From: Saonia flava
GTDB lineage: Bacteria; Bacteroidota; Bacteroidia; Flavobacteriales; Flavobacteriaceae
Reading direction: 5' to 3'
Assembly (NCBI RefSeq): GCF_011927795.1
Contig: NZ_JAATJJ010000002.1
Coordinates: forward strand, 248,001-312,000
Length of the DNA: 64,000 nt
Shown here one piece after another: positions 2,081-16,370 of this stretch (its first letter is position 1; every line of letters starts with the position of its first letter). The position numbers were made by a program, and so were the translations under genes. The notes below the pieces were generated by a model. The model was not told where the DNA came from. It saw only the letters and a list, made by a program, of their open reading frames with translations, and made no database searches.

Positions 2081-3601
2081 TTATAATATTGCAGCTTGCA
2101 TAAGCAGTTCTTCACTGGCATTTTCTTGATTTAATTCGGCATTTATTTTAGTATCACTTAAGACCAAAATGCGATCGGCAATAGCCAATATTTCCGGTAG
2201 TTCAGAAGAAACAACAACAAGACCCAATCCCTTTTTTGCCAACGAATTGATCAGATGGTAGATTTCATTTTTGGCGTTCACATCGATTCCTCTTGTAGGC
2301 TCATCAAGAAACAGGACTTTAGGATTCGTCGCCAACCACTTTGCAAGCACTACTTTCTGCTGATTCCCACCACTTAAGTTTTTCGTAAACTGCATTACTG
2401 AAGGGGTCTTTATCTTTAACGCCTCGATATATTTCTTCGACAAGCTGGCTTCTGATTTTGAACTCACTAATCCGTTCTTTACGACTTGCCCAACGCTTGC
2501 CATACTTACATTCTTGGTTATTTCCATCTGCAAGACTAGACCATCTTTCTTTCTGTCTTCAGGCACCAGGCCCATTCCATTTCTAATGGCATCCATGACG
2601 GATCGTAACTTAACTTCTTTATTTTCAATATATACGGATCCCGACATTAGATTGGGGTGTAATCCAAAAATGGTTTCCAAAAGCTCGGTTCTCCCTGCCC
2701 CCATCAGTCCGAAAATTCCGAGGACTTCCCCCTTTTTTACACTAAAATCGATATCCTTAAAGACATAACTCCTTTTATCAAACTTTCTTGGCAGGCTCAT
2801 TTTTTCAACTCTTAGCACTTCTTCCCCTAAGGGTACTTTCTCTTTTTGAAACACATTTTTAATATCCCGTCCGACCATCAAACGAATGAGGTCATCCTTT
2901 TTGGCGTGGGCGGAATTTTCAATGGTCCCTACCATTTTTCCATCCCTCAGCCCAATGAAGTGGTCTGCGATCAATAAGAGCTCATCCAATTTGTGGGAGA
3001 TATATAAAATGGACACGTTCTGCTCTTTCAAGGAGGCAATAATTTTGAATAAAGACTCGACCTCCGAGTCGGAAATGGCCGACGTTGGCTCATCCATAAT
3101 CACGACTTTTGCCTCACCTAGTAAGGCCTTTGCTATTTCAACCAATTGTTGTTCGCCCACCCTTAGTTCGGAGACTAATGTGCTTGGATTTAAATTGCAA
3201 TCCAACCGTGTCAAAAGTTCCTTGGTTTTGTAGCGCATCAATTTTGAATCGAGAAGCCCAAATACATTTCGGATCTCCCTGCCTAAAAAGATATTCTGTG
3301 CGATAGTCAAATAGGGAATCAGGTTCAATTCTTGATGGATAATGGCAATTCCTTTTTGCATAGCCTCTTTCGGACTATTGAAATGAACCTCTTCATTGTT
3401 GAAAAGGAGCTTGCCCTCGTAGTCAGGATACACTCCTGACAAAATTTTCATCAAAGTAGATTTACCGGCACCATTTTCACCAACAATGACATTGACCTTG
3501 CCTGTGTGCACTTTCAGGTTAACTGTATCCAATGCGGTAACCCCGCCGAATCTTTTGGTAATGCCTTGGGCCTCAAATAATATGTCGGATAGATTCTCCA
3601 A
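2081..3601 (-). CDS. Ribose-type sugar ABC transporter ATP-binding protein (RbsA-like, two ABC domains)
   Basis: 506 residues, the usual RbsA/MglA length, with two tandem ABC domains. The first has Walker A GENGAGKST, signature LRVGEQQLVEIAKAL and Walker B VVIMDEPTSA. The second has a degenerate Walker A (GLMGAGRTELLE), signature LSGGNQQKVVLAKWL and Walker B VLFLDEPTRGID. The asymmetry is typical of the CUT2 subfamily. It energises uptake through the RbsC-like permease. The start is a TTG codon at 3601, just after the DUF2291 stop, and no in-frame ATG fits better; this suggests tight translational coupling. Confidence 0.95.
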   Translation of the reverse strand: MENLSDILFEAQGITKRFGGVTALDTVNLKVHTGKVNVIVGENGAGKSTLMKILSGVYPDYEGKLLFNNEEVHFNSPKEAMQKGIAIIHQELNLIPYLTIAQNIFLGREIRNVFGLLDSKLMRYKTKELLTRLDCNLNPSTLVSELRVGEQQLVEIAKALLGEAKVVIMDEPTSAISDSEVESLFKIIASLKEQNVSILYISHKLDELLLIADHFIGLRDGKMVGTIENSAHAKKDDLIRLMVGRDIKNVFQKEKVPLGEEVLRVEKMSLPRKFDKRSYVFKDIDFSVKKGEVLGIFGLMGAGRTELLETIFGLHPNLMSGSVYIENKEVKLRSVMDAIRNGMGLVPEDRKKDGLVLQMEITKNVSMASVGQVVKNGLVSSKSEASLSKKYIEALKIKTPSVMQFTKNLSGGNQQKVVLAKWLATNPKVLFLDEPTRGIDVNAKNEIYHLINSLAKKGLGLVVVSSELPEILAIADRILVLSDTKINAELNQENASEELLMQAAIL

Positions 3602-3602
3602 T

Positions 3603-4220
3603 TTAGTCGCTGAATTTAATGATCATTGGAATCACTTTAATCCCATTTATTTGTGTGTCTGCAATATCAATTGTAACGGCTCCCTTAAAATATAAGATAT
3701 CCCCAATTTTTGCTTTCTTCTTAAAGGACGGCACAACGGTTTCACGGACAATATTGTTCAATTCAACGGAAATGGAATTGAAATCCATCGTGTTTTGATA
3801 ATCATCGATATTGGCCATTCCGCTGCCATCTCGAATGGCATTACCGAATATAAATTCGGTCGAAATTCTCAGTTCTTGGTTTTCTTCGAGCAGAACCGTA
3901 ACGTACTCCTCTTCGATTTCGGTTATCCTTGCTTCACCTTCGATGATAAAACTATACTCATCGCTGATGCCCAGTTTTTTCCCTTTTTGTTTAGTATAAT
4001 TTTCGAGGTCATCGGAGATGTTGCCCAAAAAATTGGAAGCATTGATCGCAGGCAACGTTTCAATTTTGTTGGACATAAAATCGGTGGCATAGGAAGCTGC
4101 ATTGAATACCAAGTCACTTTTGCTCTTTTTGATTTGATCCAACGGTTCAATATTGACGGAATTGTAAAGGGCAAGTCCGAGAACCACAACCAATATGCTA
4201 TATTTTAATACTTTATTCAT
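3603..4220 (-). CDS. DUF2291 family membrane-anchored periplasmic protein
   Basis: About 205 residues starting at ATG 4220; a TTG two codons upstream is a weaker option. One N-terminal membrane segment (LKYSILVVVLGLALY) is followed by a soluble domain. The stretch FGNAIRDGSGM and the final GIKVIPMIIKF resemble the DUF2291 family, which is known as a companion of ribose-type ABC transporter operons and has no established biochemical role. Here it lies between the binding-protein and ATPase genes with almost no spacing, so a role in sugar uptake or in handling the binding protein is a reasonable inference. The family call rests on memory of the motif and the context. Confidence 0.75.
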   Translation of the reverse strand: MNKVLKYSILVVVLGLALYNSVNIEPLDQIKKSKSDLVFNAASYATDFMSNKIETLPAINASNFLGNISDDLENYTKQKGKKLGISDEYSFIIEGEARITEIEEEYVTVLLEENQELRISTEFIFGNAIRDGSGMANIDDYQNTMDFNSISVELNNIVRETVVPSFKKKAKIGDILYFKGAVTIDIADTQINGIKVIPMIIKFSD

Positions 4221-4222
4221 AA

Positions 4223-5170
4223 TCAATTATCTGAACCATAAGCACCAAACTCATCGATATTTTCTTGGGTAACTACTTTTACCTGTAGGGGTGTTTTTTT
4301 ACTAAAATCCCGTTTCCCCTTTAAGAATTCATCTGCCATTTCTGCTGCGGTAAACGCCATTTGCCTGGGCGATTGCATGGCAGTGGCCACTATTTTTTTA
4401 TCCTTAATGGCATCCATGACATCTTTAGCACCATCAAATCCGAAAACCATTACGCTATCTGCCTTTCCAGCTGCGATCAAGGCCTGATAGGCGCCCATGG
4501 CCATGGCATCGTTTCCACAGAATACAGCATCAATATCAGGGTTCGATTGCATCACGGATTCCAACACTTCCATAGCCTTGCTCCGGTCAAAATCGGCACT
4601 TTGCTGTGCTACCATTTCAAGTTCGGGAAAATAATCTACCACACTATGAAAACCTTTAGAACGGTTCCAAGTGTTGTTGTCGCCGACCAAACCCAATAGC
4701 TCAACGTATTTCCCTTTTTTGTTTAGTTTTCGAACAAAATATTCCCCAAGCGCAACGCATCCTGAAAAATTATCGGAGGTTATTTGAGAGGTGGCCACAT
4801 CCAAGGAGTTAATTTCCCTATCCATACAAAAAGTGGGCAAATTTGCTTGTTTTGCCCGTTTTACATTGGATACGGAACCTTCGGAATCGGTGGGATTAAA
4901 CAAAATAGCATCGTATCCCGCTGCAATCAGATTTTCAAAATGTTCGGCTTCTTTTGAAGTGTTGTTCTGCGAATCAAAAATGGTGGCTTCATAACCTAGT
5001 TCTTTGGCCCTTTCTACTGCTGATTCACCCAACACCACAAACCAAGGATTATTTAAAGTAGAAATTACCACCGCCATTTTTTTCAGTTCGTGTGCCTTAT
5101 CTGTTCGAGAATTACAACCTGTAAAAGACAGTATTAAAATTACTATTAAATAGACTATGTTTTTTCTCAT
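4223..5170 (-). CDS. Sugar ABC transporter substrate-binding lipoprotein (RbsB-like)
   Basis: 315 residues of the periplasmic-binding-protein type I fold (Peripla_BP_4). A lipoprotein signal peptide ends in the lipobox FTGC at about residue 19. Family-typical stretches follow: [44 protein letters not shown] and [16 protein letters not shown] with [14 protein letters not shown]. It would capture a monosaccharide in the periplasm and deliver it to the RbsC-like permease. Its ATG overlaps the DUF1593 stop codon (ATGA), so the secreted DUF1593 protein and the importer are translationally coupled. The ligand is unknown; the operon's isomerase, kinase and transketolase suggest an unusual pentose. 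Confidence 0.93.
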
Positions 5171-6606
5171 TTAACTTTGGGCATTATATTGACAATTACC
5201 CTTTGGTAACGTGTTAAACTTGGAGCACCCTCGTCGGTAACGCTCAGAATAATATGCATGGTCTTTACCTTATCGGTTTTTGGTGCTTCAAAACTTGTGA
5301 CTTGCGCATTGGCATCCTTAAACTCGAGGCCGCCTCTGCTAATGTTCAAAGTACCGACTTCTTTATAAAGCATCCAATTGTAAGCTAGGTTGTTGCCATC
5401 GGGATCCGTTGAACCCCCAGCACTTAAGGTTACCTTGTCACCGGAATGCACGAGCAACTCGTTTGGATGATCTAATTTTGCAATAGGAGGATGATTAGCT
5501 TTCTTAAAATCAGAGGTATTGCTCCAATCGATACGTGCCGCAAAATCATTCTGATAGGCTTCCCTCCATCGCCAGATTGTAGCTTGGTTGCTTGTATGAT
5601 TTGATTTTGTGGCTGGACCATATACCTCATCATCGGCATCGGTCCAGATTGGCCGTAATTCGGGTTCGTACATGTATTTTTTAAAAGGAGGAATATATAA
5701 CTCATACCTGCCGCCCCAACCGCCATAATTAGGGTGTTCGGGATTGTTAAGACCATTGTTGACCAGGCCAAGAAACGAAGGAGTGTCACCTTCCATCAAG
5801 TATTCCGTATGTGGATGCTCTGCACCTAAGGGCCCGTGGTTATTTCTAATATGTTCATCAAGCCACGGATTGTCAACAATCGAAAAATCAGGACCTACGA
5901 AACGCCCATGGAATTTATCTCCCGAAATTCCGGTCCATGTAGCGAGATGATATTGTCCTCCACCGTTTTCTTCATAACCAGGACTAACAACATAGAAAAT
6001 TTCTTGAAAATTGTTGCGAATCCAAGGGCCTGTATCGTCTTGGTCCGAAATGGTGTACACTCTGATTTTTGAAATGATTTTATCCAGTTCGGCTTTAGTT
6101 TTGGTACGTTCCATCTTCCAGAGCGCCTGTGCCAAAACATTGGCACCACCCCAAGCCTGAACATATAGCGGGCGGTCATCATCCTTTTCCAATGCCTTTA
6201 TCAACCACTCTGATCCTTCAGAATCTTGCCCTTCGCCAACCCCGGCCATCCCAAATTTTGGAACTCCTTTTTTTATGATGCCTTTGAGGTATCCGTATTC
6301 AGGATATCCCGATTCATGTTTTTCCAGATTGTCTCTTACCTTTCCATAAGCGTCCACTATTTCATGTATACGCCATTCCGCCGTTTTATCCCTTTGCCAA
6401 CAAGAGGTAGTCGCAACTATCCCCTCAACATCCCACATATTGGAGTATGTCAAAAACCGGACTAATGATTGAGCGTCATCCGGTTCATTTTCAATGTCCG
6501 TAAGAACGAATACTCTTGGTTTTTGGTTAAAATATTGTGACTGTACGGGCAGTATTCCAATCATTAAAATGAAAATTATAACGGTTTTTAGTTTGAACTT
6601 TTTCAT
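5167..6606 (-). CDS. Secreted DUF1593 (nucleoside-hydrolase-like, Sde182-type) protein with C-terminal Ig-like domain
   Basis: 479 residues with a cleavable signal peptide (to about residue 24). The N-terminal domain (about 30-375) is the DUF1593/Sde182 nucleoside-hydrolase-like fold. Its start, [20 protein letters not shown], keeps the Asp cluster expected to bind Ca2+ and substrate in that fold. A C-terminal Ig/PKD-like domain (about 385-477) contains [17 protein letters not shown]. The exact activity of the family is not established. In this operon a periplasmic glycosidase that releases the sugar taken up by the coupled ABC transporter is the natural inference. Two paralogues follow at 10707 and 11570. 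The gene sits 4 bp after the transketolase C-subunit. Confidence 0.85.
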
Positions 6607-6610
6607 CCGG

Positions 6611-7588
6611 TTATTTTTTACTGTTAATTAGTTCTAATGCAGATTCCTTCAATCCAGAGCCTGAAATCCCATAATGATTGAAGATTTCAACCTGTGATCC
6701 TGTTACAGTATATTCATCTGGAATACCAACAATCTTAAATGGATTTTTATATCTGTTTTGAAATAGAAAGGAAGCACAGGCCTCGCCCAAACCTCCGTTG
6801 ACCATATGTTCCTCAACAGTTAGTATAGGCCTACCGTTCACAGCAATATCTTCCAATAAATTGGTATCCAAGGGCTTTATGGTATGCATACTTACTACCG
6901 TAGTTTTTATACCATGTTCTTCTTCCAGGGCTTTTGCTGCCAACCATGCAGGATATACCGTTTCACCATTAGCGATAATGGCTAAATCTTCACCCTCTCT
7001 AACAACACGTCCTTTTCCGAACTCAAAACTTTGGTCCGCTTCGTTCAAAAACGGCATTGGCTTTTTTCCCAGGCGGAGATAAATAGGTTTTTTGAATTCC
7101 ACCGCTTTACGCACCGCATGTTCGGTTTCAAAATTATCGGCTGGAGCAACAATCGTCATATTATTAATGGAGCGTAATGCTGCATAATCATGCAAACTGT
7201 GATGTGTGGTACCCAATGCGCCGTAACTCACTCCGGCGCTTATAGCTATCAATTTTACGGGATTATCAGAATAGGCAACATCATTTTTTATCTGCTCTAG
7301 AGCCCTAGCACTTAAAAAGCAGGCCGGAGATACAGCAAAAGCCTTCTTGCCTGCCGAGGCCAGACCTGCTGCCACACCAACAAGATTTTGCTCCGCGATA
7401 CCCACTTCCACAATTTGTTTCGGGTATCTTTCAGCAAATGGCACCAATTTTCCAGAGCCACGTGAATCACTTGTAACTGCGAGAATCGCCTTATCATTAG
7501 CCGCCAATTCTTCAAGGGTTTTTGAAAAAACCACTTGATTGGCTATTCCCATTTTTAAATCTTTTTCGTGTATCTTATCTAACTGCAT
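6611..7588 (-). CDS. Transketolase, C-terminal subunit (pyrimidine-binding plus C-terminal domains)
   Basis: 325 residues covering the transketolase Pyr domain and C-terminal domain. Visible family stretches are [20 protein letters not shown] (with the catalytic Glu of the cofactor-activating EQ motif), [35 protein letters not shown] and [15 protein letters not shown]. It works with the N-terminal subunit encoded 6 bp upstream to make one thiamine-diphosphate enzyme moving two-carbon ketol units. Split transketolases are often dedicated to one pathway; the one known beside an isomerase, a FGGY kinase and a sugar ABC importer is apulose-4-phosphate transketolase (AptB subunit). That function is inference here. 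Confidence 0.92.
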
Positions 7589-7594
7589 AGGTCT

Positions 7595-8419
7595 CTAGAT
7601 TTCAGCTTCCGCTTCTGTTAATTCCGATTGAGCCAATTCATACTCTTCTTGACTGGGTACACCATGATGCCATTTTATATTGCCTTCCATATAACTTACG
7701 CCCTTGCCTTTAACAGTATGCGCTACAATAAAATTTGGTTTTCCTGTTTCAAAAGGTCCGTTGTTCAAGGCTGCTTCCAATTCCTTTAGATCGTGCCCAT
7801 CGACCTCTTTTACTGACCAGCCAAAAGTTTCCAATTTATCACGAACAGAACCGGTGTTCATCACTTCCTCATTCGACCCTGTTATCTGTTGCTTATTGTA
7901 ATCCAGAATGGCGTACAGGTTATCCAATTTATAGTGGTAAGCGGATAGAAAGGCCTCCCAGTTGGAACCTTCGGGCAATTCTCCATCTCCCAATAAGGTA
8001 AATACGCGATGTGTTTTATTATCCAGTTTTGCCGCAATTGCTTCCCCTACGCAGATCGGAAGGCCATGGCCCAAGGCACCAGTATTTTGCTCAACCCCGT
8101 TTACTTTTTTCGTCGGATGTCCTATATAATGCGATTGATATTGACATAGTGTTTCCAAATCCGATTCCGGAAAGAACCCACGATTGGCCAAGGTCACAAA
8201 AAGTGCTTCCACACAATGTCCTTTACTTTGAATATAGCGATCTCGATCGGGATTTTTGAAATTCTTCGGATCAACGTTCAAAACACGATTGTAAAGTACA
8301 TTGAGAATATCGGTACACGAAAGGCTACCGCCCGTATGGCCCGCCTTTGCCTTATAGATGTACTTGAGAAGGCTTTTTCTTAGGTACACTGATTTTAACT
8401 TCATTTCTCTATCGGTCAT
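7595..8419 (-). CDS. Transketolase, N-terminal (thiamine-diphosphate-binding) subunit
   Basis: 274 residues equal to the PP domain of transketolase. It has KAGHTGGSLSCTDILNVLY, RDRYIQSKGHCVEALF, the GALGHGLPICVGEA stretch, and the ThDP/Mg-binding motif LLGDGELPEGSNWEAFL with LYAILDYNKQQ downstream. The start at ATG 8419 is 8 bp after the isomerase stop; an alternative ATG lies five codons in. It pairs with the C-terminal subunit at 6611-7588. Housekeeping transketolase is usually a single 660-residue chain in Flavobacteriaceae, so this split copy in a sugar operon is probably pathway-specific (compare AptA). Confidence 0.92.
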   Translation of the reverse strand: MTDREMKLKSVYLRKSLLKYIYKAKAGHTGGSLSCTDILNVLYNRVLNVDPKNFKNPDRDRYIQSKGHCVEALFVTLANRGFFPESDLETLCQYQSHYIGHPTKKVNGVEQNTGALGHGLPICVGEAIAAKLDNKTHRVFTLLGDGELPEGSNWEAFLSAYHYKLDNLYAILDYNKQQITGSNEEVMNTGSVRDKLETFGWSVKEVDGHDLKELEAALNNGPFETGKPNFIVAHTVKGKGVSYMEGNIKWHHGVPSQEEYELAQSELTEAEAEI

Positions 8420-8427
8420 GTCTTAAA

Positions 8428-9837
8428 CTATTTGTGATTGTACACTTCCCAGCCCATATAATTTCCTAAGGCTTCGTTCAATATTGCACCGGTCTTGGAT
8501 GCATTCATGACAACATGGTGCTCAAAGCCATTCTTGCATACATAATTCATTAATCCTTGTAGGTCTTCAATTTTGGCCACCGCCCTATTACCGAATGTTT
8601 TCAAGGGGTCATCTGTCAGCTCGCCTTCCCCAATATAGGCCTTTATAATACCTTTTGGGTCATCGGTACTTATTCTACCGTAAGTCAATGGATTTGCAGG
8701 GGTACGCCCATCCAATGCTCCATAGGTATTTTCTACTCCGACAGAAGTTCCTAAAATTGGTGCATTACTGATCTCGATATCGGGCAAGAACGATTTTGCC
8801 CAATTGCCACAATGAAATAGCACACATTTATTGAGGTCATCGGCGTAGTTATTGTTCCAATCGACCAAAGCACTTGGCGAACCGGAAGCCAACTGCATGG
8901 CATACATACTCAAGGTTCCCGTTACATCTACTTCACAGGCAGATGGCAGCATGTTCTCTGACATAATGCTCATACTTGTACATACATTGCACCCAAAATT
9001 CTGTTGCAATGATGTCCAGCATTGTATTGCCGTAGCATCCAGTGCATATTCTTCCACAAACTGATTGAGCACAACGTCCAATTTCGCCATTTGGATCATC
9101 GCCGCATCGGGGGTTTTACCTTTAGGGGCATAGGCATTTATAGCCTTCAAATGTTGTTTGACCACAGTATCATCCTTTGTGAGTTTGTCCGCTTTGCCGA
9201 GAATCTCGGATAGGTCTACCGTAGTAACGGTAATACCATTTCTTTGTAAAATTTTTTCTGAATAGCGAACCGTATTGAATGCTCCAGGTCTTGCACCCAC
9301 GGCTCCGATTCGAACGTTGCGCAACCCCTTAACTACCCTACAGACCGCCACGAAATCCATTAAATCTTTTTGGAACAGTTCTTCGGAAGGCGACATAACA
9401 TGTTTGCTGGTCAAGGAATATTTGATTCCATATTGATATAAGTTGTTGCAGACCGATATTTTACCACACCAGGAATCACGTCTATTGATAACGTTCATTT
9501 TAGAAAGCTCATCTGGATATGCTTGAATGAGAACAGGAACATTCAAGTTTGCCAGTTTCAAGGTGTCGGCCACTCCCTTTTCATCTCCAAAATTGGGCAA
9601 CAAGACCAATACCCCTGCAATTTCTTCACTATGCCTTTTGAACAGTTCCGCACACTTTTGGGCATCTTTAAAAGTTTCAACACCTGCAAGTTTGGTGTCC
9701 GTGGTATCCAACAAGACCGATTTAAGGTTAAGTTTTTTAAAAACGTCAAGAATTTCAATTCTTGCTTTTTCCACCAAACTGTCGGGGAAAAAATCTCTAT
9801 TTCCTATTATAATACCCAGGCTAATTGGTTTACTCAT
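8428..9837 (-). CDS. L-fucose/L-arabinose isomerase family protein (candidate aldose-ketose isomerase)
   Basis: 469 residues starting at ATG 9837, first gene of the operon. Features consistent with the COG2407 fucose/arabinose isomerase superfamily are the N-terminal Rossmann-like part (LLDTTDTKLAGVETFKDA, VLVLLPNFGDEKG), the middle part (VRIGAVGARPGAFNTVRYSE), and metal/substrate-region candidates in ALDATAIQCWTSLQQNFGC and FHCGNWAKSF. Members isomerise aldoses to ketoses with a divalent metal, but many are uncharacterised. Here it would feed the FGGY kinase and split transketolase encoded downstream. D-apiose to D-apulose is the favoured guess; D-arabinose, L-fucose or D-ribose are alternatives. 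Confidence 0.85.
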   Translation of the reverse strand: MSKPISLGIIIGNRDFFPDSLVEKARIEILDVFKKLNLKSVLLDTTDTKLAGVETFKDAQKCAELFKRHSEEIAGVLVLLPNFGDEKGVADTLKLANLNVPVLIQAYPDELSKMNVINRRDSWCGKISVCNNLYQYGIKYSLTSKHVMSPSEELFQKDLMDFVAVCRVVKGLRNVRIGAVGARPGAFNTVRYSEKILQRNGITVTTVDLSEILGKADKLTKDDTVVKQHLKAINAYAPKGKTPDAAMIQMAKLDVVLNQFVEEYALDATAIQCWTSLQQNFGCNVCTSMSIMSENMLPSACEVDVTGTLSMYAMQLASGSPSALVDWNNNYADDLNKCVLFHCGNWAKSFLPDIEISNAPILGTSVGVENTYGALDGRTPANPLTYGRISTDDPKGIIKAYIGEGELTDDPLKTFGNRAVAKIEDLQGLMNYVCKNGFEHHVVMNASKTGAILNEALGNYMGWEVYNHK

Positions 9838-10319: not shown

Positions 10320-10706
10320 ATGAAAAGCCAAAATCCTTATATAGGCCCTGTTATATCACCAAATGAAATTAGCGAAAATAGTATATGTAGAAAGAAGTTT
10401 GTAGCACTCTATGAACAATACTGGGAATCACTTTACGCCATAGGTTACAGTAGAATTAAATCAAAGAACGATGTTGAGGACATAATACAGGAGATTTTTA
10501 TTAATCTATGGAACAGAAAAACTTTCAAGGTAAATGGTTGTATGAAAGTTTATCTCCATACAGCTATGAAGTATTAGATAATAGATTACTTCAGAAAATC
10601 CAAATCTAAGGAAGTAAGGCTTGAATATCTTAGTGTAAAACAAATTAGCCCCATGAAGGCCGAACAGTTGGTTGCAATCAACGAATTAAATAATAAACTA
10701 TCCGTA
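10320..10706 (+). pseudogene. ECF sigma-70 factor (FecI-like) remnant, interrupted by an in-frame stop and truncated
   Basis: The frame from ATG 10320 encodes a sigma-70 region 2: FVALYEQYWESLYAIGYSRI, KNDVEDIIQEIFINLWNRK and VYLHTAMKY. It then meets TAG at 10575-10577 and continues in the same frame with IIDYFRKSKSKEVRLEYL, the normal continuation of FecI-like factors between regions 2 and 4. The sigma sequence stops at about NELNNKLSV (10706), where the same frame passes into DUF1593 sequence. Region 4 is absent, so it cannot act as a sigma factor. Such factors normally drive a SusC/SusD operon with an anti-sigma factor; none remains here, which points to deletion. Confidence 0.8.
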
Positions 10707-11552
10707 GAGCTGGCGCAAGCACTGTGGAGAGTACGAAATGATAGAAGTGAAGAAGAATTAAATAAATTCATATCCAAATTGAGGGTGTATGCGTGGGGTC
10801 ATCAAGACGCTACGGGACTTTGGATTCAAGAGAACTTTCCAAACTTGGTTTATTTAGTATCTACAGGTGGTGTTATTTATTCTGCCCCACCAGAATTGCA
10901 TAGTAAAGAATGGTTGGATACCCATGTGCGTTTTAATCATGGCCCCTTGGGCGCCTTATGTCCCATACGCTGGGGGAAACTAGGCGGTGCCGATTCAGAG
11001 ACCTACTTTGGTTTAATCCCAAATGGATTAAGCTATATGGAACACCCAGATTGGGGTGGCTGGGGTGGTCGCCTTCAAAAGCAAGCTGGCTCGGACACAC
11101 AATGGGTTGACCTTGAATCCAATATTAAAAAAGACAGTTTAGGGCATACCATCAGCCGTTGGGCAAGGGAATTTCAAAATGATTTTCAGGCAAGAATGGA
11201 TTGGTGTATAAAGGATTTTGATGAAGCCAACCACCCTCCAAAAGCTGTATTGAATGGTGATGAAAGTCTTAACTTTTTGGAAGTCCATGTCAAACCAAAA
11301 GAGAAAATCACCTTAGATGCTACAGGCAGCAGCGATATCGACGGTGATGAGCTTTATTATGAATGGAGGTACTACCACGAACCAAGCTCCTATAAAGGAA
11401 CACTGAATATTAAAAATCCTACGCAAAAAACGGCCACTTTTAAGGTGCCAAAAGATGCATCGGGAAAAACCTTGCACGTACTATTGGTTGTAAGTGATAA
11501 TGGTGAACCAAAATTGACCCGATACCGTAGAATGGTAATCCATGTAGAATAA
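10707..11552 (+). pseudogene. DUF1593 protein lacking its N-terminal part (fused to the sigma remnant)
   Basis: From LAQALWRVRND onward the frame matches the DUF1593 gene at 5167-6606 from its residue 158 ([11 protein letters not shown]) to its end, including the C-terminal Ig-like domain (SSDIDGDELYYEW). The first about 157 residues, with the signal peptide and the catalytic Asp cluster, are missing. The open frame back to ATG 10653 is sigma-factor sequence, so an automatic annotation would report a 299-residue protein. Without export signal or active site it is unlikely to be functional. The rest of the frame is undamaged, so the deletion is probably recent. Confidence 0.8.
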
Positions 11553-11569
11553 TAATTAAAGAAAATACA

Positions 11570-12634
11570 ATGAAATCTCTTATTAAACCCTTACTATTAG
11601 TATGTCTCGTCATAGGTTCTTGTAAACCTTTGGCCACACAAGAAATTACCGAACAAAAACCGTATCGTGTTATTATGTCTTCGGATTTCCCTCCTTTGGA
11701 CGTCATCCCCGGCGGAGCGGGTTATGGTCCAGCTGAAAAACGAAGTGATCCTGATGACATTCAATCTATGGTTCGCTTTCTTTTATACACCAATGATTTA
11801 GAAGTTGAGGCCTTAATAGCTTCTTCCGGTACTTTTGCCAATATCGCCAACAAACAAAATATTCTGGATATTTTGGACTTGTATGATGAAGTTGATGAGA
11901 ATCTTAGAAAACACAATCCAAAATTTCCAACTGCAGACCATTTAAAATCAGTTACCTACCAAGGGCGTTCCGGAAACTGGGGAAAACCTGTTGAGGAAAT
12001 TATTGGAGAGGGCAAGAATAGTGATGGTTCAGAAGCAATTATCAAAATTATAGATGAAGATGACCCAAGACCGGTATGGATTGGTGTTTGGGGTGGTCCG
12101 CAAGAGGTCGCCCAGGCCATTTGGAAAGTGCAGCAGACTAGAACACCTAAGGAATTGGACAAATTTCTAAGTAAAATGCGGATTTTTATGATAGGCTTAG
12201 GAAGTAAGACCGGTCAAGATGGTTCAGGTCAGTGGATGCTAGACAACTTTCCCAATTTGTTCGTGATCGTTTCGCAAAAAACCTATGGGGGAATGTTCGC
12301 TCAAAAATCACCATTGGGCAATTTGGAATGGCTCAATACCAATATCAGAAAAAATCATGGTCCTTTAGGTGCCATTTACCCCAGATCTGGTTTTAACCCA
12401 GAACCTCCGGGCATGCAGGAGGGGGATACACCAACATTTTTGCACTTAATTAGTGCCATAAATGGCAAAAACGACCCGGACCAACCCAATCAAGAAAGTT
12501 GGGGTGGGCAATATGAACAACGTGACCCAGCTAAGAATCATTGGTATGATGGGCCTGGACGTGAAAGCGTTTCAAAATGGCTAGAAGAAATTCAGGCTGA
12601 TTTTGCAAAACGAGCGGATTGGATGGTTGATTAA
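11570..12634 (+). CDS. DUF1593 (nucleoside-hydrolase-like) lipoprotein, single-domain form
   Basis: 354 residues with a lipoprotein signal peptide (lipobox near IGSC, Cys18). The DUF1593 domain is present from VIMSSDFPPLD through the Asp-rich motif KRSDPDDIQSMVRFL, then WGGPQEVAQAIWKVQQTRT, IRKNHGPLGAIYP and WGGQYEQRD. Compared with the gene at 5167 there is an insertion between the first Asp and the DPDD motif, and the protein ends at ADWMVD, exactly where the other copies continue into an Ig-like domain. It may be a natural short form or a C-terminal truncation. It is 17 bp after the broken DUF1593 copy. Function is unknown; probably a periplasmic glycosidase. Confidence 0.8.
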   Translation: MKSLIKPLLLVCLVIGSCKPLATQEITEQKPYRVIMSSDFPPLDVIPGGAGYGPAEKRSDPDDIQSMVRFLLYTNDLEVEALIASSGTFANIANKQNILDILDLYDEVDENLRKHNPKFPTADHLKSVTYQGRSGNWGKPVEEIIGEGKNSDGSEAIIKIIDEDDPRPVWIGVWGGPQEVAQAIWKVQQTRTPKELDKFLSKMRIFMIGLGSKTGQDGSGQWMLDNFPNLFVIVSQKTYGGMFAQKSPLGNLEWLNTNIRKNHGPLGAIYPRSGFNPEPPGMQEGDTPTFLHLISAINGKNDPDQPNQESWGGQYEQRDPAKNHWYDGPGRESVSKWLEEIQADFAKRADWMVD

Positions 12635-13450: not shown

Positions 13451-13475
13451 AATGAATCAATTTAACTATATTATT

Positions 13476-16370
13476 ATGAAGCTGTTGCCTTTAAGGAAAA
13501 TCAAATACTGTTTAACTCTTTCTCTTGTACTTTCAGCCATTACACAATTAACAGCATCAGATAAAACCGACTATGTAACCAAAGAACCCACTAAAAAAAG
13601 TTTTCCGTTGGCAAGCAAAGGGGTACCTGTCAATTTATTGGTGAGCTCTGCAGATTTTTCAGGAGTTCAAAAAGTTGCTGGGCATTTACAGAACGATCTC
13701 TACAAAGTCACAGGTACCAGACCCAATCTTTTTAAAGACACTATTTCCGATAGTGGTCCCATTGTCATTATTGGTACTCTGGGCAAAAGTCCCCTTATTA
13801 ACATTTTAGTAGAATCAGGAAAAATAAAAGCTTCCCTATTGGAGGGCAAATGGGAAAAGTTCATTACCCTATCCGTAAAAAATCCCATGCCAGGCGTAAA
13901 GAGAGCATTGGTCATTGCAGGGAGTGACAAACGTGGTACTATATATGGCATGTATAATTTATCCGAACAAATTGGCATTCACCCTTGGTATTATTGGGCA
14001 GATATGCCCATAGTTAAACAAACCGAATTGCACGTTACTTCCGGCATTCACACGCTGGGCGAGCCCAAAGTAAAATACCGTGGAATCTTTATCAATGATG
14101 AAGCTCCGGCACTGAGAAACTGGGCAAAAGAAAAGTTCGGTGACTTTAACCATCAATTTTACGAAACCGTTTTTGAATTAATTCTAAGAAATAAGGGCAA
14201 TTACCTATGGCCTGCCATGTGGCAACCCAGCTCTTTTGTAACAGATGATCCAGAAAATGCCCAATTGGCCGATGAATACGGCATTGTAATTTCCACTACC
14301 CACCATGAACCCATGATGCGGGCACATGCAGAATGGGACAGTAATAAAGATGGGGCTTGGAACTATGAAACAAACAAAGAAAAACTACAAGAGTTTTGGC
14401 GTGCTGGTATAGAGCGTATGGGTAATCATGAAAGCATTGTTACCTTGGGTATGCGTGGAGATGGTGATGAGGCCATGAGTGAAGAAACTGTGGTTGATCT
14501 AATGAAAAACATTATAGTGGACCAACGTAAAATCATAGCCGATGTTACCGGAAAACCTACAGAAGAAACTCCACAGGTTTGGGCTTTGTACAAAGAGGTT
14601 CAAGATTATTATGACAAGGGAATGCGGGTAGATGATGATATCATGATTCTCTTCTGTGATGATAACTGGGGCAATGTGCGCATCTTACCAAAAAAAGAGG
14701 ACCTAAGCCATAAAGGTGGCTTTGGAATGTATTACCATTTTGATTTTGTTGGGGGTCCTGTATCCTACAGATGGCTCAATGTTACGCAAATAGAAAAGGT
14801 ATGGGAACAAATGAACCTGTCCTATGAACGCGGTGTAAAAGATTTATGGTTGGTCAATGTGGGGGATATTAAACCCATGGAACTGCCCACTAGCTTCTTT
14901 CTGGATTTTGCCTGGGATCCAGAGGCCATAAAAGCAGAGGATTTACCAAACTATTATGAAAACTGGGTAAAAAAGCAATTTGGTGATGAACTTGCTACAG
15001 AAATTGGAGAGATTTTATCCCTTTCTACAAAGTATGCCGCACGCCGCACGCCAGAAATGTTGAAACCAGATACCTATAGCCTACAAAACTATCGTGAAGC
15101 GGATAAAATCCTTGAGGAATACACCCAACTACTTGCCCGAAGTAAAAATATCTATGAAAAACTTCCAGAAACCCATAAATCGGCTTTTTATCAACTGGTG
15201 CTTTTTCCTGTGGAAATTAGCAGCAATCTAAATGAGATGTACATTGCTGCCGGTAAAAACAAGCTGTATGGTGATCAAGGCAGGGCATCGGCCAACTATT
15301 ATGCAGATGTGGTAAAAGAAAAATTCTTTAAGGATGCGGAACTTGTTCGCCAATACCATGAAGAGATGGAAAATGGCAAATGGAACCACATGATGTCCCA
15401 AACCCATATTGGATATAGGTCATGGAACAACCCACCTTATAACAAAATGCCCGAAGTGTCCTATCTTCAAATAGAACCTTCTGCCCAATTGGGTTACGTG
15501 CTGGAGAATGGTGTTACCTCTCGTTGGAACCGTTCTGGTCTGTTTAGTAGAAGCTTTTCCCCTTTCGACCCTATAAATGATCAAAACTACTACTTGGAAA
15601 TTTTTAACAGGGGTAAAGAAAAATTAAGCTATACCCTAACCGCTAAAAATGATTGGATCAAACTTTCTTCTAAAAGTGGCTCAATACAATACGATGAAAA
15701 AGTTAGGGTAAGTATCGACTGGAGCAAAGCCCCAAAAGGTCAAGAAACTGGTGAAATTGTTCTCTCTGGTGCAGGGAATGAATTCACCATTACTGTACCC
15801 CTTAAAAATAATTTGCCAGAGGTTTCCGGTTTTGTAGAGAACAATGGTGTTGTTTCTATTGAAGCTGCACATTTTAGCAATACATTCAACTCAAAAAATA
15901 TCAGCTGGACCGTAGTTCCCAACATGGGCCGTACCAATTCTGCCATAACAATGGAGCCTGCCGATGCCGAAAGGCAAATACTGGGCAAGAATACTCCCCG
16001 TATTGAATATGAATTTACCCTTTTCAACGAGGGGGAACTAAAAATAGATACCTACCTCTCTCCTACCCTAAATTACCAAAAGAACGAAGGTCTAAAATAT
16101 GCCATTGCCATAGATGATGAAGCACCACAGATCATCAACATACATGAAGGGGAAACCGTACCGGATTGGGAATACCCAGACTGGTGGAACAACTCGGTAA
16201 CGGACCATATCAAGAAAAAACAATCTGTCCACCCCAACATAAAAAGTGGTACGCACACCCTAAAAATTTGGATGGTGGATGCAGGGGTTGTTTTTCAAAA
16301 ATTTGTGATAGATACTGGTGGGTTAAAAGAATCCTATTTAGGCCCTTCGGAGAGTATTTATGTAAAATAA
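13476..16370 (+). CDS. Secreted GH115 xylan alpha-1,2-glucuronidase
   Basis: About 964 residues from ATG 13476, with a signal peptide ending near LTAS. GH115 hallmarks are the N-terminal domain (IVIIGTLGKSPLI, GSDKRGTIYGMYNLSEQIG), then PKVKYRGIFINDEAPALRNW, LRNKGNYLWPAMW, TTHHEPMMRAHAEW, TLGMRGDGDEAMS and ILFCDDNWGN, followed by helical and C-terminal beta domains. GH115 enzymes remove (4-O-methyl)glucuronic acid from internal or terminal xylose of glucuronoxylan, complementing GH67, which acts on oligosaccharide ends. It is monocistronic and 17 kb from the main xylan locus, but carries the same operator. Length and motifs are as expected for a full-length enzyme. Confidence 0.95.
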   Translation: MKLLPLRKIKYCLTLSLVLSAITQLTASDKTDYVTKEPTKKSFPLASKGVPVNLLVSSADFSGVQKVAGHLQNDLYKVTGTRPNLFKDTISDSGPIVIIGTLGKSPLINILVESGKIKASLLEGKWEKFITLSVKNPMPGVKRALVIAGSDKRGTIYGMYNLSEQIGIHPWYYWADMPIVKQTELHVTSGIHTLGEPKVKYRGIFINDEAPALRNWAKEKFGDFNHQFYETVFELILRNKGNYLWPAMWQPSSFVTDDPENAQLADEYGIVISTTHHEPMMRAHAEWDSNKDGAWNYETNKEKLQEFWRAGIERMGNHESIVTLGMRGDGDEAMSEETVVDLMKNIIVDQRKIIADVTGKPTEETPQVWALYKEVQDYYDKGMRVDDDIMILFCDDNWGNVRILPKKEDLSHKGGFGMYYHFDFVGGPVSYRWLNVTQIEKVWEQMNLSYERGVKDLWLVNVGDIKPMELPTSFFLDFAWDPEAIKAEDLPNYYENWVKKQFGDELATEIGEILSLSTKYAARRTPEMLKPDTYSLQNYREADKILEEYTQLLARSKNIYEKLPETHKSAFYQLVLFPVEISSNLNEMYIAAGKNKLYGDQGRASANYYADVVKEKFFKDAELVRQYHEEMENGKWNHMMSQTHIGYRSWNNPPYNKMPEVSYLQIEPSAQLGYVLENGVTSRWNRSGLFSRSFSPFDPINDQNYYLEIFNRGKEKLSYTLTAKNDWIKLSSKSGSIQYDEKVRVSIDWSKAPKGQETGEIVLSGAGNEFTITVPLKNNLPEVSGFVENNGVVSIEAAHFSNTFNSKNISWTVVPNMGRTNSAITMEPADAERQILGKNTPRIEYEFTLFNEGELKIDTYLSPTLNYQKNEGLKYAIAIDDEAPQIINIHEGETVPDWEYPDWWNNSVTDHIKKKQSVHPNIKSGTHTLKIWMVDAGVVFQKFVIDTGGLKESYLGPSESIYVK

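Follow-up and report, generated by a model that had tools for sequence, protein, structure and literature searches.

Which sugar is supplied, and from what glycan, by a secreted protein whose gene stands among those of a sugar importer? The question is raised by a gene at 5167-6606 (minus strand; 479 residues from an ATG start) in the window, as we call the whole 64,000-nucleotide stretch analysed here (positions 248,001 to 312,000 of contig NZ_JAATJJ010000002.1, from the flavobacterium Saonia flava). Its product is a DUF1593 protein, matching PF07632 (Sde182_NH-like) over residues 31-301 (3.8e-114, 381.2 bits against a cut-off of 26.8) and PF21027 over residues 391-474 (5.3e-25), with a nucleoside-hydrolase-like domain at about 28-364 followed by a C-terminal beta-sandwich at about 391-474. 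The N-terminus resembles a signal peptide by eye and has no lipobox cysteine, and the protein is probably exported and extracytoplasmic. Because this secreted protein sits within an apparent operon for apiose import and catabolism, it probably cuts apiose off plant pectin. We lean, somewhat beyond an even call, towards a protein that releases D-apiose, that is, a candidate extracytoplasmic metal-dependent beta-D-apiofuranosidase acting on apiogalacturonan or on fragments of rhamnogalacturonan II (RG-II).

The DUF1593 gene is the fourth of nine on the minus strand. The block runs from a FucI-type sugar isomerase (8428-9837; the proposed apiose isomerase on the grounds of Pfam, BLAST identity and a tree) through the N- and C-terminal subunits of a split transketolase (TKn, 7595-8419; TKc, 6611-7588) and the DUF1593 gene to an RbsB-like sugar-binding lipoprotein (4223-5170; PF13407) of an ATP-binding cassette (ABC) importer, a periplasmic DUF2291 protein (3603-4226), the sugar transporter ATPase (2081-3601) and permease (1085-2056) and, as the last gene, an FGGY kinase (1-1065 and 446 bases beyond the window). 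Gaps between the genes are, in block order, 8, 6, 4, -4, -4, 1, 24 and 19 bases; the TGA stop of the DUF1593 gene and the ATG of the binding protein, which carries a lipobox-like LSFTGC (by eye), share the four bases ATGA. The genes are probably co-transcribed, and promoter- and terminator-like sites occur at the level of shuffled sequence (21 against 26.4 and 10 against 8.9, respectively). A first-pass annotation of this DNA had described the gene as embedded in the operon with its stop overlapping the lipoprotein start, just as the tight nine-gene block has it. Its further suggestions, that the enzyme makes the imported sugar and may found a new pentosidase-type glycosidase family, fared well in part: an exported nucleoside-hydrolase-like protein would indeed be made in step with a pentose-type importer and probably supplies the sugar taken up, and cluster comparison, co-occurrence and proximity sharpen the sugar to D-apiose, while glycosidase activity and the bond cut are predicted features.

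The operon itself is best read as a D-apiose importer with a transketolase pathway, and very probably serves apiose, the sugar being named from homology and synteny. The corresponding cluster of Escherichia coli SE15 comprises genes for a binding protein, DUF2291, ATPase, permease, FGGY kinase and two transketolase subunits. The kinase has been named aplK and the transketolases aptA and aptB, and D-apiose as sole carbon source supports E. coli and Escherichia fergusonii strains that carry the cluster (PMC13001218, 2026). The same article describes the Escherichia version as lacking apsI, the isomerase gene of Pectobacterium (PMC13001218). Plasmid clusters of Sodalis, Rahnella and Klebsiella, whose kinase, AptA and AptB are 70-79% identical to those of E. 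coli, add a FucI-type isomerase, which we infer to be the published ApsI; the window's isomerase is 52-53% identical to these three. Like the E. coli and plasmid clusters, the window operon unites a split transketolase, an FGGY kinase and an ABC importer with DUF2291 in one place, with identities to the E. coli proteins of 46% (AptA), 39% (AptB), 43% (permease), 42% (ATPase), 33-35% (binding protein) and 36% (kinase).

In a midpoint-rooted tree of 33 isomerases, a 100/100 branch parts the 19 operon-borne ones, enterobacterial ones included, from the 14 others. The tree was used in preference to identity, because isomerases about 50% identical also occur without a split transketolase beside them. 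Identity alone was rejected as proof of apiose: of 19 matches in a phylum sample (see below), those 14 reach no more than about 50% identity, and the short flanks that were read contain no split transketolase. Six of those 14, read more widely (L094-L099), have no recognised apiose-operon gene save a full-length transketolase in L094 (33% identical to TKn), and around them stand, among others, genes of the GFO/IDH and SDR families or an FGGY kinase gene accompanied by a sodium symporter. Loci L054-L067 carry a sister group of FucI-type isomerases at about 50% identity, with no split transketolase in the flanks read.

Could the operon serve another pentose, such as D-arabinose or D-ribose, with DUF1593 releasing that sugar from furanosides? 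The modest identities to the E. coli genes would allow it, as would a binding protein whose best model is that for ribose (249.6 bits, below the cut-off of 337) and a GlpK-like kinase (551 bits on the GlpK equivalog, cut-off 590; 564 bits on the GlpK subfamily model, cut-off 498). We nevertheless consider it improbable: importer, DUF2291, split transketolase and FGGY kinase are combined as they are in E. coli, the isomerase falls in the tree with its enterobacterial counterparts, and PF13204, the family of apiosidases such as BT1012 (which we take to be GH140 in CAZy), accompanies the isomerase in 9 of 10 genomes of a family sample, the exception being the window's own, against 9 of 139 others. 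As to the kinase, the weak link in the apiose reading, the Sodalis cluster enzyme scores 480 and 471 bits on the same two GlpK models, and the window's is 36-38% identical to AplK-type kinases. The Saonia flava genome has another GlpK-like gene, 40% identical to that in the operon, so a housekeeping role need not be invoked for the operon kinase, and we propose that it acts on apulose or dihydroxyacetone.

DUF1593 keeps company with the operon across genomes. The family sample (149 genomes, nearly one per genus) has the isomerase in 10, PF07632 above its cut-off in 14 and both in nine, which places DUF1593 in 9 of 10 isomerase genomes against 5 of 139 others (p = 2.5e-10; 8 of 9 against 5 of 139, p = 2.4e-9, with the window's genome removed), statistics that, like those that follow, ignore kinship. 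In six of the nine family genomes the isomerase has a DUF1593 copy at most 20 kb away, where random placement of copy clusters predicts 0.19 (p = 4e-9); the copies of G049, G061 and G127 are distant from it. Across the phylum sample (395 genomes) the isomerase (1e-100) was found in 19, PF07632 (1e-10) in 33 and both in eight (p = 4e-5). When the isomerase is restricted to the operon type, DUF1593 is present in 5 of 5 against 28 of 390 (p = 3e-6); two of these five, G179 and G263 (the latter in 320 contigs), have no DUF1593 near the isomerase. A class sample held the operon-type isomerase in 4 of 267 genomes. Lifestyle as the sole cause of co-occurrence was rejected on a comparison confined to 14 operon genomes: GH28 (PF00295) is found in 12 of them, at 60 places, and within 20 kb of the isomerase only in G011 and G061, versus eight of the same 14 for DUF1593.

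Searching with DUF1593 alone returned 10 loci, six of which (L016, L017, L018, L020, L022 and L023) have importer genes close by, and four of these six the isomerase and transketolase too. No operon gene was seen in L019, L021, L024 or L025; judging by its genes, L019 seems to be the G110 contig on which the operon begins next to a different DUF1593 copy. At L018:6151-16521, in Maribacter litopenaei, the operon is split by frame breaks in TKc, DUF1593, ATPase and kinase, which reflect either decay or sequencing error. Two of the six loci with importer genes are Opitutaceae contigs (Verrucomicrobiota), on which DUF1593 genes come after those of the importer. In L084, DUF1593 heads a series of TIM-barrel isomerase, hypothetical gene, TKn, TKc, kinase, DUF2291, ATPase and permease, and these genes are nearer to the E. 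coli apiose genes than the window's are (kinase 45%, ATPase 46%, permease 57%, TKn 51%). Two DUF1593 genes stand with the same type of isomerase and TKn in L082, and a Croceibacterium plasmid has DUF1593 beside an L084-type isomerase (51%).

This TIM-barrel isomerase (PF01261 in L084) adjoins DUF1593 at L084:8416-9402, L082:6336-7316 and L044:13904-14884, and in L084 and L082 also the split transketolase, where this unrelated enzyme takes the place of the FucI type; it may be a second apiose isomerase. Genes for pectate lyase, GH28, GH43, GH51 or PF13204 are neighbours in several loci; the DUF1593 genes of L023, for example, are followed by those for a pectate lyase (PF09492), an arabinofuranosidase and a GH43 enzyme. 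A tree of 66 DUF1593 domains (close relatives and the rows used to build the search profile among them) places the window protein in a clade of 23, eight of which lie inside an apiose-type or importer operon and four up to about 10 kb from one, counts that are partly due to the choice of loci, several having been fetched for the isomerase.

How does DUF1593 relate to the apiosidases already known? BT1012 is a beta-apiosidase that cleaves the Api-GalA bond of RG-II (PMC7939467). The window DUF1593 protein has no match to PF13204 (Pfam, E up to 0.01), and we propose that the two have the beta-apioside substrate class in common. Seventeen genomes carry the operon-type isomerase (the 10 of the family sample; G179, G301 and G263; G536; and those of L016, L017 and L020). 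Of these, 11 have a strong PF13204 match, G049 and G110 a weak one (about 100-110 bits at best), and four none at 1e-10 (G000, G301, G536 and the genome of L016), Saonia flava among the four. DUF1593 is present in 16 of the 17, and none lacks both families. In each of the four genomes that lack PF13204 the isomerase has a DUF1593 copy no more than about 2 kb away; in G536 this nearby copy belongs to a lower-scoring group, and a high-scoring one is found at a distance of 20 kb. The arrangement fits, without proving, a replacement of PF13204 by DUF1593 in the four genomes; since DUF1593 occurs in 16 of 17, the four-genome pattern is not itself significant.

The strength of PF13204 in 11 of 17 genomes raises a second alternative, that the operon serves apiose while DUF1593 cuts another bond of the same glycans, for instance an arabinofuranoside, or a bond next to apiose, and PF13204 frees the apiose. 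Most operon genomes have PF13204, so DUF1593 could serve another bond; the two families are near each other in L026, L031 and L074, and DUF1593 copies stand beside GH115 as well. Several DUF1593 subclades are found side by side in one locus, and they therefore cannot all do the same job. We regard this alternative as unlikely for the window protein, given that in genomes lacking PF13204 DUF1593 is the family found within the operon or right next to it, and that DUF1593 heads the apiose-type operon of L084. Apiogalacturonan is a galacturonan bearing single or short chains of apiofuranose (PMC11229556, PMC7644952), a structure that leaves room for a second, exo-acting enzyme. BNR-repeat proteins (PF13088 in one that was scanned) recur beside DUF1593 and PF13204 (L026:4011-6512, L031:445-1917) and may be partner enzymes for the same glycan.

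The fold of the protein bears on whether it is a hydrolase at all. An AlphaFold2 model built from 16 sequences (pLDDT 82.9, pTM 0.86, with loops 213-239 poor) matches best 2yhg, the structure of Saccharophagus degradans Sde_0182 (Z 45.6, rmsd 2.3 over 398 residues, 38% identity) and next a series of nucleoside hydrolases (Z about 17-19.6). In group I of the latter, two Asp of a DxDxxxDD fingerprint and one about 230 residues on hold a Ca2+ to which O2' and O3' are bound; the attack comes from the opposite side, by a water on the metal, and departure of the leaving group is assisted by a His that immediately precedes the last Asp (PMC8910321). The residue at this place is His in group I, Trp in group II and Cys in group III (PMC8910321). 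In our alignment D37, D43, D44 and D274 are Asp in 66 of 66 domains, with D274 lying 230 residues after D44, and E272, Q189 and D190 are kept in 59, 59 and 60 of the 66. The first-pass annotation had singled out an Asp cluster near residues 36-44 and proposed structure prediction as a check on a metal site; D37, D43 and D44 are that cluster, and the model has the nucleoside-hydrolase fold with the metal-site Asp positions kept, as judged by motif and spacing. Comparison of alignment A1 with RihC by profiles found nothing (a shallow profile was set against a single sequence), so the residue correspondences rest on motif, spacing and fold match.

DUF1593 thus shares with the nucleoside hydrolases RihA, RihB and IU-NH the fold and three metal Asp positions, two N-terminal and one 230 residues on, and differs from them at several places. 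The first fingerprint Asp is missing (position 35 is Leu in the window protein and Asp in 1 of 66), five residues in place of three separate D37 from D43 (three in 10 of 66, the usual state being two extra residues), and the window protein accordingly lacks the complete fingerprint; the residue before the last metal Asp is Gly (G273; Gly in 65 of 66) and not the His, Trp or Cys hallmark. DUF1593 further has a signal-peptide-like N-terminus and the fused C-terminal beta-sandwich. A secreted nucleosidase supplying ribose is very improbable in spite of the shared fold and metal Asp positions. Supply of ribose from nucleosides was accordingly rejected: the protein lacks two hallmarks of nucleosidases, Sde_0182 reportedly does not act on nucleosides (PMC8910321), and the operon is of the transketolase type.

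Sde_0182, the sole DUF1593 relative studied, has both Pfam families of the window protein and is reported to keep the Ca2+ site (PMC8910321). Three carbohydrate-binding domains are described at the front of Sde_0182, and Pfam shows none in the window protein. Sde_0182 is reported to be inactive on nucleosides and has been proposed to be a furanose-binding module (PMC8910321), and the same role could be imagined here, the protein capturing apiose or apiosides in the periplasm without hydrolysing them. The missing first fingerprint Asp and the missing His before the last Asp are in keeping with such a role. On the other hand, four Asp are invariant over all 66 domains and E272 nearly so, the operon already encodes a binding lipoprotein, and the published test, in the part of the article available, covered nucleosides and does not mention apiosides (PMC8910321). 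We hold a pure binding module to be about as doubtful as the cutting of another bond, if not slightly more so.

Several points weigh against the apiofuranosidase assignment and set its strength. Sde_0182, as just described, is reported inactive on nucleosides and has been proposed to bind furanoses; no published activity for any PF07632 protein was found in the literature searched, with subscription journals mostly outside it, even though a PF07632 structure (2yhg) has been solved since 2011. At the level of the operon, identities to the E. coli proteins are modest (33-46%), the DUF2291 proteins of window and E. coli give no BLAST match and have only the Pfam family in common, and the tree leaves the grouping of the GlpK-like kinase with AplK unsettled. 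No DUF1593 gene appears in the stretches read from E. coli, Sodalis, Rahnella and Klebsiella, the PLSDB gene table being incomplete, and G134 is an operon genome without DUF1593. To these are added the PF13204 genes strong in most operon genomes, with the other bond that they allow, and DUF1593 copies in glucuronoxylan-like (GH115) or unrelated contexts, taken up below.

If the apiofuranosidase assignment holds, the secreted DUF1593 protein would free D-apiose from beta-D-apiofuranosides, most likely seagrass apiogalacturonan or RG-II oligosaccharides, and the ABC importer of the same operon would take up the free sugar. Inside the cell, the FucI-type isomerase would convert apiose to apulose, the kinase would phosphorylate apulose or the dihydroxyacetone released by transketolase, and the split transketolase would transfer a two-carbon unit to give pentose phosphate. 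The pathway is already known; the assignment of the enzyme is new as far as the literature searched shows. beta-D-Apiofuranose, like ribofuranose, has cis O2 and O3. By analogy with nucleoside hydrolases, a Ca2+ on D37, D44 and D274 would bind this furanose cis-diol, a metal-bound water would attack C1 with inversion, and E272, two residues before D274, could serve as the acid where nucleosidases use a His. Gene order and overlap, family, co-occurrence, proximity, predicted fold and Asp conservation are observed here; the metal, the catalysis, the bond cut and the mechanism are inferred. In RG-II, boron bridges link the apiose residues (PMC10952590).

DUF1593 is also found in other settings. 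Thirteen regions were fetched for DUF1593 alone (L075-L087): two have transketolase genes like those of the operon (L082 and L084) and three have GH28 or pectate lyase close by (L085, L086 and L076); in the other eight neither transketolase nor pectin genes were recognised, annotation covering representatives only. GH115 flanks DUF1593 in Catenovulum and lies near it in L080 and in the window, a pectate lyase is some 12 kb away in Croceicoccus, and in Pantoea the gene stands amid unrelated ones. The family as a whole may serve more than one glycan. A Selenomonas plasmid cluster (L043:3035-12323) holds a rhamnosidase, a beta-glucoside PTS, a GH1 gene and an exported DUF1593 protein (signal-peptide-like N-terminus, by eye), and may trim plant diglycosides before uptake; a cytosolic role there was considered and dropped, because that N-terminus is signal-peptide-like, as it is in the other five plasmid-borne copies inspected (by eye). 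Six DUF1593 proteins of one subclade (L031:7200-8504, L074:12312-13613, L068:6937-8226, L022:3219, L023:6169 and L049:1006) have E272M and D190N together, which probably marks a changed function, that is, another substrate or lost catalysis.

Saonia flava has further DUF1593 genes, two more in the window and two elsewhere in the genome. Beside the operon copy, the window contains a second intact nucleoside-hydrolase-like domain protein of another subclade (11570-12634, plus strand; Pfam) and a truncated gene (10653-11552, plus strand) that encodes the C-terminal half only, without the N-terminus of the metal site, and is probably a remnant. In frame with the latter is a PF04542 sigma-factor fragment (5.4e-6, 10320-10574, followed by a stop), and 10320-11552 as a whole looks like the remnant of a deletion. 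A GH115 gene lies at 13452-16370. Some 20 kb from the operon, a glucuronoxylan locus (27904-54494) includes XylA- and XylB-like proteins, a LacI regulator, UxaC, GH67, UxuA and GH10, together with esterases (one glucuronoyl-esterase-like), SusD and a TonB receptor.

For the family, we consider it an even call that DUF1593 constitutes a new glycoside hydrolase family, in which the nucleoside-hydrolase fold has been turned to furanoside O-glycosidases that bind the cis-diol of the sugar through a metal, and in which the subclade of the window protein is a beta-D-apiofuranosidase, not related to the PF13204 apiosidases, that frees apiose for those users of apiose pectins that have no PF13204 enzyme. 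With a concrete substrate in view, a single protein and a handful of substrates suffice to test PF07632. If the proposal is true, a second route of apiose release exists, the nucleosidase fold acts on polysaccharides and on a plant cell-wall sugar, and apiose glycans, seagrass apiogalacturonan for instance, could be open to Flavobacteriia that have no PF13204 enzyme.

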